A DNA stretch of 5,020 nucleotides from Acidobacteriaceae bacterium (GTDB taxonomy: Bacteria; Acidobacteriota; Terriglobia; Terriglobales; Acidobacteriaceae), in contig PLSH01000388.1 in assembly GCA_003165095.1 (NCBI GenBank), positions 1,773 through 6,792 of the forward strand, in the 5' to 3' direction. The notes beneath the pieces were generated by a model, which did no database searches, had not been told where the DNA came from, and was given only the letters and a program-made list of their open reading frames with translations. The translations under genes and the position numbers were made by a program. Shown in pieces: positions 1,767 through 4,346 of this stretch. Within the stretch, counting starts at the first letter, position 1; each line of letters starts with the position of its first letter.

Positions 1767-2660
1767 ATGGACTGGAAAAGCCACCGCATCGAAGCGATCC
1801 TCGAACAGGCCCTGGTTGAAGACCAGGCCGTCCTCGATGCCACCACCACCCTCACCATCGACCCCAATCTGCGCGCCACGGCAGCCATCCTCGCCCGCCA
1901 GGAGCTGGTCGTCGCCGGCCTCGGCGCAGTGCCCCGCTTCTTTGAGATCTTTGCCCGCCTCGATCCGCGTCCCCACGCCCACAACCGCTTTGAGGTCGTC
2001 AGCCATCCTGAAATCTTCGACGGCGTCCGCGTCCCGGCCGGCCAGGTGCTCGCCATCGTCCGCCACAACGCGTGTGTCCTGCTCTCCTCCGAGCGCGTCA
2101 TCCTCAACCTGCTCCAGCACCTCAGTGGCATCGCCACCCTCACCCACCAGTTCGCCGACGCCATACAAGGCACCCATGCGCGCGTGCTTGACACCCGCAA
2201 GACCGTTCCCGGCCTCCGCGCTCTTGAGAAATACGCCGTCCTCTGCGGCGGAGGAACCAATCACCGCATCGACCTCGCCTCCGGCATCCTCATCAAGAAC
2301 AATCACATCTCGCTCGGCGGCGGCCTCACAAAAGTCATCGCCCGCGCCCTCCAGTCGCGCCAGCCCGGCCAGCGCGTGCAGGTTGAAGTGCGCACGCTCG
2401 AGGAGCTTGAAGAGGCACTCGCCGGCGGCGCAGAGGCCATCAAGCTCGACCAAATGACCGCTGCCCAGGTAAAGCAGTCCATCGTCTGCATCAAGCAGGA
2501 GAAGCGCTGGATTCCCACCGAAGCCTCGGGCGGCATCGGGCTTGAAAACATCCGCTCCTACGCCGAAACCGGCGTCGACTTCATCAGCGTCGGCGCGCTC
2601 ACCCACTCCGCCAAAGCCGCCGACATCTCCATGTCCATTACCGCGGAGACGGCTGATTGA
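1767..2660 (+). CDS. nadC: Nicotinate-nucleotide pyrophosphorylase (quinolinate phosphoribosyltransferase, carboxylating)
   Basis: NadC converts quinolinate and PRPP to nicotinate mononucleotide, CO2 and pyrophosphate, the last step of de novo NAD synthesis before the shared NaMN pathway. At 297 residues it has the usual full length. Diagnostic blocks are all present: the N-terminal sandwich domain (residues 1-115), ERVILNLLQHLSGIAT at 109-124, TRKTVPGLRALEKYAV at 143-158, CGGGTNHR at 160-167, LIKNNHI at 175-181, EVRTLEELEEAL at 207-218, KLDQM at 226-230, EASGGI at 252-257 and FISVGALTHS at 272-281. The R, K and H residues in the TRKT, NHR and IKNNH motifs are those expected to bind quinolinate and PRPP in this family. 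The ATG at 1767 is preceded by a GGGAAG ribosome-binding site at 1754-1759 with 7-nt spacing, the clearest in the window, which supports this start. Its TGA overlaps the birA ATG by one base. nadA and nadB are not in the window. Confidence 0.97.
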   Translation: MDWKSHRIEAILEQALVEDQAVLDATTTLTIDPNLRATAAILARQELVVAGLGAVPRFFEIFARLDPRPHAHNRFEVVSHPEIFDGVRVPAGQVLAIVRHNACVLLSSERVILNLLQHLSGIATLTHQFADAIQGTHARVLDTRKTVPGLRALEKYAVLCGGGTNHRIDLASGILIKNNHISLGGGLTKVIARALQSRQPGQRVQVEVRTLEELEEALAGGAEAIKLDQMTAAQVKQSIVCIKQEKRWIPTEASGGIGLENIRSYAETGVDFISVGALTHSAKAADISMSITAETAD

Positions 2661-2662
2661 TG
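2645..2662 (+). promoter_or_regulatory. nadC/birA stop-start overlap with ribosome-binding site
   Basis: The nadC stop TGA (2658-2660) shares its last base with the ATG of birA (2660-2662). GGAG at 2645-2648, inside the end of nadC, lies 11 nt before that ATG. This arrangement typically gives translational coupling by re-initiating ribosomes. A TTG at 2657 immediately before the ATG is in the same frame and would add a single Met, but the ATG is the more likely initiator. Confidence 0.6.
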
Positions 2663-3490
2663 TTTGACCTGGCAGCGCTTGAATCCGACCTTGCCCACAC
2701 CATCTTCGCCGGCAATCTCCATTTCGCCGCCGTCACCGGCTCCACCAACTCCGATGCCATGGCCGCCGCGCGCAATGGTGCGCCGCACGGCTCCGTCTGG
2801 CTCGCCGACGAGCAGTTGGCCGGCCGCGGACGCGGCGGTCACGCCTGGCACTCGGCCGCCGGCCAGGGCCTTTACGTCAGCGTGCTTTTGCGCCCCCAAC
2901 TCCCCGCCGCCAGCCTGCCGCTTCTCCCCCTCGTCGCGGGCCTCGCCGCCGCCCATGCCATTCGCGCCGTCTCCTCGCTCGCTGTCGATCTGCGCTGGCC
3001 CAACGATCTGCTCATCGGCCCTCGTAAAGCCGGCGGCATTTTGATTGAGGCACGAAATGACTCCGAAGGGCTGCCCCACGCAGTGGTGCTCGGCATCGGC
3101 ATCAACGTCCACCAGCGCAGCTTTGATGCCGGCCTTCCACCCCAGCGACGAGGACCTGTCGCTGGGGACCCCGGGTTTGCCACGCCCGCAACTTCACTGG
3201 ATCTCGCCGCAGGCCGCACCATCAGCCGCCAGACCCTGCTCATCGCCCTGCTAAAATCGCTGCAACGCGAAACCAACGCGCTGCTTGATCCCGGCGAAGC
3301 CGCAAAGGTTCCCACGCGCGTTGGGCAGGCTTCCACCTGGGTTCGCGGCCGCAATGTCGAAGTGCACGGCCCGCAAGCCTGCGTGGGCGTAACAGACGGC
3401 CTCGACGAGCAAGGATTCCTGCGCGTCCAAACCGCTGCCGGACTCGTAATCGTGCAGACCGGCGGCATCCGCGCACCGGAGATAAACTGA
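2660..3490 (+). CDS. birA: Biotin--[acetyl-CoA-carboxylase] ligase, monofunctional
   Basis: The enzyme makes biotinyl-AMP from biotin and ATP and transfers biotin to a lysine of the biotin carrier protein of acetyl-CoA carboxylase and related enzymes. In the 276-residue product, TGSTNSDAM at 27-35 and GRGRGGHAWHS at 55-65 form the biotin/ATP-binding loop. LRWPND is at 111-116 (R in place of the common K), RKAGGILIE, with the likely catalytic Lys K123, is at 122-130, and LGIGINV is at 144-150. ATSLDLAAGR at 177-186 and an SH3-like C-terminal domain (about 222-272) complete the fold. There is no N-terminal helix-turn-helix domain, so unlike E. coli BirA it cannot act as a biotin operon repressor in the same way. 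Residues about 160-173, just before ATSL, are encoded by a palindromic repeat and look like an in-frame insertion in a loop. It is translationally coupled to nadC, and coaX follows after 4 nt. An in-frame TTG at 2657 is an alternative start. Confidence 0.95.
   Translation: MFDLAALESDLAHTIFAGNLHFAAVTGSTNSDAMAAARNGAPHGSVWLADEQLAGRGRGGHAWHSAAGQGLYVSVLLRPQLPAASLPLLPLVAGLAAAHAIRAVSSLAVDLRWPNDLLIGPRKAGGILIEARNDSEGLPHAVVLGIGINVHQRSFDAGLPPQRRGPVAGDPGFATPATSLDLAAGRTISRQTLLIALLKSLQRETNALLDPGEAAKVPTRVGQASTWVRGRNVEVHGPQACVGVTDGLDEQGFLRVQTAAGLVIVQTGGIRAPEIN
3138..3177 (-). repeat. About 40-bp palindromic dispersed repeat, copy A (inside birA)
   Basis: This segment, read on the minus strand, matches 3561-3600 of the plus strand at 33 of 40 positions without gaps (counted by hand). 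Its core is a perfect 10-bp inverted repeat, CCCCAGCGAC at 3140-3149 and GTCGCTGGGG at 3158-3167, around an 8-nt loop. It encodes birA residues about 160-173 without breaking the frame. It sits between the GIGIN strand and the ATSL motif, where family members normally have a shorter loop. I infer a small non-autonomous element tolerated as a protein loop. I saw no obvious flanking target duplication. Confidence 0.75.
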
Positions 3491-3494
3491 AACC

Positions 3495-4346
3495 ATGCTG
3501 CTAGCCCTCGACGTCGGCAATACCAACACGGTCCTCGGCCTCTACCGCCTCGATGGCGAAAACCCGGTGTCCCCCGCGACAGCTCCTGGTCCCGGGGATG
3601 TTGATAAACCCGAACTTGCCGCGCACTGGCGCATCACCACCCATCGCGCCCAGACCGTCGACGAATACGGCGTCTTCTTCGTCAATCTTTTTGAGATGCA
3701 CGGCATGGCGCCCAGCCAGGTCACGCACATCATCATCGCTTCCGTCGTCCCGCCCGTCGACTCCACGCTGCGCCGCGTCTGCGAAGAGTACTTCCACGTT
3801 GAGCCCATGTTCGTCGAGCCCGGCATCAAGACCGGCATGCCCATGCTCATCGACAACCCCACCGAGTTGGGCGCAGACCGCATCGCCGACTGCGTCGCAG
3901 CCTTCGCCCGCTACGGCGGTCCCTGCATCGTGGTCGATTTCGGCACCGCAACCAAGTTTGAAGTCATCTCCGCCCGCGGCGAATACATGGGCGGAGCCAT
4001 CGCGCCCGGCCTCGGCCTCAGCGCCGACGCCCTTTTCTCCCACGCCGCGCGTCTCAGCCGCGTCGACATCAAGCGCCCCGCAAAAGTCATCGCCACCAAC
4101 ACCGTCGGCCATCTCCAGAGCGGCCTTTACTTCGGCTACATCGGCCTCGTCGACGGCATCATCGAGCGCATCCTCGCCGAGCTCGGCGACCAGCAGCCGC
4201 GCATCGTCGCCACCGGCGGCCTGGCCCGCATGATCGCCGCCGACTCGCGCTACATCCAGGAGATCGACGAGATGCTCACCCTCGAAGGCCTGCGCATCCT
4301 CTTCGACCGCAACCGCACCGCCCGCCCCCGCGGCCGCGCCAGCTGA
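3495..4346 (+). CDS. coaX: Type III pantothenate kinase
   Basis: CoaX phosphorylates pantothenate with ATP, the first step of CoA synthesis. It belongs to the ASKHA (acetate/sugar kinase-Hsc70-actin) fold and is generally insensitive to CoA feedback. The 283-residue product shows DVGNTNTVLG at 6-15 (phosphate loop), IASVVPPVD at 81-89, NPTELGADRI at 121-130 (the Asp of GADR is the proposed catalytic base), VVDFGTATKFEVIS at 146-159, GGAIAPGLGLSADAL at 166-180, SGLYFGYIGLVDGI at 209-222 and VATGGLA at 238-244. Family members are usually about 255-260 residues. The excess comes mainly from residues about 20-38, a Pro/Gly-rich stretch between GLYRLDG and ELAAHWRI, most of it encoded by the repeat at 3561-3600. 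The rest is a basic C-terminal tail (RTARPRGRAS). ATG at 3495 places the P-loop at its normal distance from the N-terminus; a GGAG at 3478-3481 lies 13 nt upstream. It is the last gene of the forward run. Confidence 0.97.
   Translation: MLLALDVGNTNTVLGLYRLDGENPVSPATAPGPGDVDKPELAAHWRITTHRAQTVDEYGVFFVNLFEMHGMAPSQVTHIIIASVVPPVDSTLRRVCEEYFHVEPMFVEPGIKTGMPMLIDNPTELGADRIADCVAAFARYGGPCIVVDFGTATKFEVISARGEYMGGAIAPGLGLSADALFSHAARLSRVDIKRPAKVIATNTVGHLQSGLYFGYIGLVDGIIERILAELGDQQPRIVATGGLARMIAADSRYIQEIDEMLTLEGLRILFDRNRTARPRGRAS
3561..3600 (+). repeat. About 40-bp palindromic dispersed repeat, copy B (inside coaX)
   Basis: This is the partner of copy A in birA, in the opposite orientation and about 380 bp downstream. 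Shared blocks include AACCCGG, GTCCCC, GCGACAG, TCCT and GGG. The stem is decayed compared with copy A: only CCCCG at 3572-3576 pairs with CGGGG at 3593-3597. It encodes coaX residues 23-35 (N-P-V-S-P-A-T-A-P-G-P-G-D), in frame, in the loop between the first two beta strands of the kinase. Similarity may continue a little upstream (TGGC, then an A-run before CCC) with a 2-nt gap. The same element is thus read in opposite strands by the two genes. Confidence 0.72.

Follow-up and report, generated by a model that had tools for sequence, protein, structure and literature searches.

In-frame insertion of palindromic sequences into proteins has been described above all in Rickettsia, and other bacteria have furnished some cases as well. 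Rickettsia palindromic elements (RPEs) occur in and between genes, and are found in frame in conserved proteins of unrelated function; classic members measure 105-146 or about 150 bp (PMC2229807, PMC10969869). The shorter RPE-4 and RPE-6 have been classed as CGTC repeats (PMC3733652), and target duplication by RPEs is entered as '?' in the review table consulted. The GTAG and CGTC REPs are short, high-copy palindromes that also form dimers, and several species have copies lying wholly inside ORFs, intragenic REPs outside Rickettsia being thus already in print (PMC3733652). The same survey mentions acidobacteria a single time, for transposases flanked by terminal inverted repeats, of which Koribacter ORF1552 has a repeat family (PMC3733652), and the RepRanger count table includes a Granulicella genome. 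The YPAL (RU-2) repeat of Yersinia creates a target duplication and goes into sites of dyad symmetry or positions beside them (PMC2229807), and IS1397 and ISKpn1 insert into REP palindromes between genes (PMC1525189).

The window analysed here, a stretch of 5,020 nucleotides, carries two copies of a 38-bp palindrome which, judging from sequence comparison, very probably represents a non-autonomous mobile family (RPE/MITE-like) of the Acidobacteriaceae and near relatives. Like RPEs, the element is palindromic and occurs in frame in genes as well as between them (56 of 154 sampled arrays were genic, with clean empty sites); it differs in its acidobacterial hosts and in being 38 bp long and G+C-rich, with duplicated flanks and no end tag. 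Size alone would not exclude RPE membership, because RPE-4 and RPE-6 are short. The likeness to RPEs drawn in the earlier note holds for the element's behaviour, yet by comparison with published descriptions it looks like a distinct family. With REPs it shares a short, high-copy palindrome whose stem varies but stays paired, and it differs from them in having tails other than GTAG or CGTC at the core ends in nearly all of the 124 copies compared (CGTC is present inside the core), and no flanked RAYT at 30 Y1_Tnp loci, the REPtron criterion holding for GTAG repeats only. As regards the 'mostly extragenic' trait of REPs, 98 of the 154 arrays, a non-random sample, were not wholly genic and 56 were genic. 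Target duplication and hairpin sites are shared with YPAL/RU-2, which is, however, about 168 bp long, makes duplications of 3-26 bp and belongs to enterobacteria (PMC2229807). Intergenic insertion into pre-existing palindromes is shared with IS1397 and ISKpn1, which are complete insertion sequences encoding a transposase, whereas the acidobacterial element is 38 bp long and gene-free. In genic arrays, and more weakly between genes, its target is duplicated over about 4 bp, a feature shared with MITEs. In line with the earlier note, which knew of no named family for this host, the parts of the literature searched held no acidobacterial family of this kind, and one may exist under another name.

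Many 38-bp copies in acidobacteria, together with orthologues having empty sites, make the origin and fate of protein insertions testable, and the flank duplication hints at how insertion occurs. They also call for caution in annotation, as mobile DNA may be the source of some short loops that lack an explanation in proteins of acidobacteria.

The copies in birA and coaX

The window comprises the end of valS, an ORF with a DnaJ domain, nadC, birA and coaX. One element copy is found in each of the last two genes, birA (biotin protein ligase; 2660..3490, plus strand; Pfam BPL_LplA_LipB, 3e-18; 43 orthologues aligned) and coaX (type III pantothenate kinase; 3495..4346, plus strand; Pfam Pan_kinase, 6e-72). 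The minus strand of 3138-3177 and the plus strand of 3561-3600 are identical at 33 of 40 bases without gaps; the runner-up inverted 40-mer match anywhere in the window stands at 27 of 40, and in each of 60 first-order Markov shuffles of the window the highest score for two separate positions was 25-27. The inverted match described in the earlier note is thereby upheld, as are its statements that both copies lie in coding sequence (both reading frames are open), that they are read in opposite orientations (the birA core on the minus strand, the coaX core on the plus strand), and that both keep the frame, with 42 bp in birA and 45 bp in coaX relative to empty relatives.

Delimited by this match and by gaps in the orthologues, the birA insertion spans 3137..3178 (minus strand, 42 bp) and encodes residues 160-173, PPQRRGPVAGDPGF. 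Its 38-bp core (3137-3174, minus strand) is a clean hairpin, with ten perfect pairs between arm 1 (3140..3149) and arm 2 (3158..3167), both read on the minus strand and corresponding to the stem that covaries in the family. The 45-bp coaX insertion (residues 23-37) lies at about 3561..3605 on the plus strand, as indicated by the protein starts of relatives (n = 45), the gap difference and the loop length; its exact ends are uncertain because the flanks repeat. The coaX core (3564-3601, plus strand) is decayed, with two of ten stem pairs lost when read from the sequence. AlphaFold models place the inserts in segments predicted with pLDDT below 50 between regular elements, at residues 157-173 of BirA and 22-36 of CoaX. 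A search of Rfam gave no match covering the element; the sole match, RF03018, lies away from it and was rejected, its 18.6 bits being far under the 82-bit gathering score.

A 38-bp core and its empty sites

A model of 38 columns was built from 13 copies first found by sequence profile alone. The core consists of a 10-bp stem, an 8-base loop and short tails, which read CCGGGGT and TGG in almost every one of 124 copies, the inverted arms that form the hairpin stem lying 7 and 3 bases from the core ends. Stem positions were paired in 98.5% of cells in the 13 starting copies (90.2% when shuffled), in which three stem pairs had changed on both sides, and in 98.9% for 91 distinct cores (88.2% with shuffled arms, maximum 90.0%), a set that favours pairing because it was found with a model containing the stem. 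The inner stem covaries by swapping pairs, and there is hardly any variation in the loop and the outer stem. In stretches L269-L279, from three genomes (G343, G286 and G417), the cores have stem variants of their own (e.g., ACAAAC and ACGAAC) with similar outer flanks, and every sampled core was called intergenic.

Of 17 related acidobacterial genomes, 16 gave model matches, at least 632 in all when no more than 150 candidates were scored in any one genome; the largest count was at least 114 matches in 2.7 Mb. Matches were carried by at least 53 of 150 genomes from the family of G001, one of the 17, and by at least 26 of 297 genomes from the phylum, both lower bounds since few candidates were scored per genome (45 and 22, respectively); the same model gave no match in 34 other genomes, one group 22 acidobacterium included. 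A scan of L081-L220 for isolated half-cores, as possible marks of an autonomous element, returned only degenerate remnants.

Orthologues were sought among CoaX relatives, of which the best 80 of 205 were kept; L001-L044 are contigs of acidobacterial MAGs with 71-86% CoaX identity, L045 standing at 59%, and the relatives are labelled Acidobacteriaceae, Acidobacteria, Acidobacteriota, Terracidiphilus and, in one case, Bryobacteraceae. For 43 of 45 relatives, tblastn gave an alignment across the birA site; none of these 43 has the window's 14 residues, and L038 has two tandem 14-residue units slightly downstream. When gap differences in DNA were taken at each site relative to the best five relatives listed, we obtained 42 bp for birA of the window, valS of L040 and L031, and rlmD of L019, and 84 bp for the tandem pair in birA of L038. 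In coaX both the window and L019 differed by 45 bp and L007 by 84 bp; the inserts in this gene are mostly 45 bp, a point against a uniform gain of 42 bp. A comEC-like site in L035 was not clean (difference of about 102-104 bp). At the occupied valS site of L031, L019 has a degenerate, element-like stretch of 48 bp, which may be an old insertion common to both.

Among 45 proteins in which the coaX loop was measured, it comprises 12 residues in 33, is 4-6 residues longer in three, and is longer by 14, 15, 19 or 28 in nine, among them the window, with 27 residues against 12 in empty proteins. On the coaX tree, 8 of 41 taxa were marked as carriers and 8 parsimony changes were required, compared with a shuffled mean of 7.6; the 27-residue cut-off wrongly omitted L016 (26 residues), the pattern did not fit L035, and the tree lacked 5 of 46 taxa. 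The insert is scattered on the tree, and independent insertion is indistinguishable from repeated loss; the site is either occupied recurrently or holds an old, decaying insert.

Further empty sites came from comparisons of UvrD and GatB, each covering 16 of the 17 genomes. UvrD of G001 has a 14-residue insert that the 15 other aligned genomes do not have; in GatB the site is empty in 12 genomes and filled in four, by 14 residues in two, by 18 in one and by 14 in a shifted position in another. The peptidase S9 gene of L151 contains 14 residues missing from its L185 counterpart, whose own copy was not clean, the region being 34 residues longer than in L151. Fifteen residues in RNase R of L174 are absent at the L187 site, a case not counted because the ORF is cut by the end of the stretch.

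These comparisons show that at several sites the copies were inserted and are not ancestral, and that the genic insertions compared preserve the frame, 42 bp being the commonest length. The proposal of a mobile or amplified palindromic element made in the earlier note agrees with this repeat family and its empty sites: relatives hold many more copies, genic and intergenic, with common boundaries, and the segment is missing exactly at several sites, birA and coaX included. The contrary outcome that it had named, the same protein loops encoded by unrelated DNA, was not what we found, since DNA and not one peptide is conserved, with genic copies in all six frames despite a strong preference for one.

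Genic and intergenic placement

To describe placement, 140 stretches were fetched, with 186 model matches (117 plus 69), of which 178 were exactly 38 bases long; 176 were left after removal of identical contexts, forming 154 arrays. Genes were called with our own codon model, with element codons masked; 76.6% was called coding, and the model may miss genes. Of these arrays, 56 were genic, 97 intergenic and one partial, a genic share that is no random-sample estimate because the stretches came from listed, mostly best-scoring matches. The first 80 stretches yielded 37 genic ORFs, and a Pfam scan of 30 of these gave a match in 26 (25 above the curated cut-off) and none in four; the part covered by the match included the insert in RibD_C, E1_dh, two peptidase S9_N, valyl-tRNA synthetase, UvrD helicase and GatB_N, and the functions of the host genes are unrelated to each other. 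Genic arrays lay on the gene's own strand in 41 of 56 cases and in one of the six frames in 27, the dominant reading being xGVPSDRSSSLGW. All six frames of the consensus core are free of stop codons, which by our estimate is not remarkable by itself at this G+C content. In the glycine dehydrogenase gene of L204 (2592-2851), two copies 222 bp apart have identical 8-base flanks, which suggests an internal duplication carrying the element.

The four bases on each side of the 56 genic arrays were 61.2% identical (31.3% in shuffled pairs), with exact 4/4 matches in 13 (1.0 expected) and matches at three or more positions in 31 (6.5 expected); over 5000 shuffles, the maxima were 42.0% identity, 6 exact and 16 with at least three. 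The other 25 arrays match at two positions or fewer, the birA copy of the window being one of them (AAAC/AAGG). Identity was weaker between genes, at 37.5% against 24.4% in the control. By this comparison, the bases flanking genic copies are shown to be duplicated over about four positions. All 12 tandem linkers in genes measured 4 bp; those between genes measured 3, 4 or 5 bp, with 4 bp in 4 of 10, and a linker can repeat the flank, as does AACG four times in L219.

After arrays in the commonest hairpin family were left out (98 reduced to 78), 20 of 78 intergenic arrays lay between complementary arms of at least 7 bases, against 4.6% of controls; for genic arrays the figure was 3 of 56, against 3.7%. 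A separate hairpin family, mostly of 27 bp (GTGGCTTTTTC...GAAAAAGCCAC), occurs in its short form at 67 places in G002, 45 in G005, 12 in G007, three in G008, one in G001 and none in G011. Another 43 places in G005 have the 38-bp core or a variant between the arms of this hairpin; an exact pattern detected no core between its arms in G002. These composites measure 63 (2), 64 (1), 65 (20), 66 (17) or 67 bp (3), exceeding the modal hairpin by 36-40 bp, and since the right junction is mostly identical, they may spread as a unit.

Proposed movement of the element and rival readings

The reading that we favour is that an enzyme acting in trans would insert the element at staggered cuts, leaving a target duplication of roughly 4 bp, which together with the 38-bp core would give 42 bp, or 14 codons, as the usual gain. 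With a core free of stops in all frames, insertions into loops could be translated and tolerated, and selection would purge from genes those that break the frame or are harmful; between genes the frame would be irrelevant, with lengths varying and copies often lying between the arms of other hairpins. Frame-keeping purely by mechanism was rejected as the whole story, because intergenic linkers of 3, 4 or 5 bp and the lengths of the G005 composites vary. Tentatively, and with considerable doubt, the element might even be adapted to coding DNA through its 42-bp gain, its stop-free core and the mild, hydrophilic 14-residue linker encoded in one orientation, so that an enzyme could sprinkle short peptides into housekeeping proteins throughout a bacterial family.

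Movement of the copies as REPs, in the form of single-stranded DNA and by IS200-type REP-associated transposases (RAYTs), is an unlikely alternative, although the element is a short, imperfect, high-copy palindrome, its intergenic copies lie between hairpin arms, and Y1_Tnp (IS200-type transposase) matches occur in all 17 genomes searched. At 30 fetched Y1_Tnp loci, part of all such matches in these genomes and with flanks of up to 1.5 kb, only two had an element copy, one each, and none had a flanking inverted pair of copies (REPtron). One of the two (L136, 1462-1500) lies in frame within the transposase ORF itself (GSPAHELCALGWKP). The tails CCGGGGT and TGG are not GTAG or CGTC, CGTC being internal though, and target duplication is not a known feature of IS200-type insertion. 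No transposase for the element was identified, linkage to Y1_Tnp being mostly negative at these loci.

Less plausible still is selfish spread after which genic copies were kept because the 14-residue linker, or an mRNA hairpin, is useful. The strand and frame bias in genes (41/56 and 27/56) and the use of the same loops across several genomes in coaX and gatB would fit such a role; however, purifying selection on the peptide explains the frame bias equally well, some coaX and gatB copies look decayed, the host genes are functionally unrelated, and the insert is absent from most orthologues. Finally, local coincidence, codon bias or gene conversion between birA and coaX, to which the 400 bp separating the copies in adjacent genes might point, is refuted by the at least 632 family matches and the empty sites, with shuffles that never attain 33/40, compensatory stem changes, and copies in valS, rlmD, UvrD, GatB and other genes.
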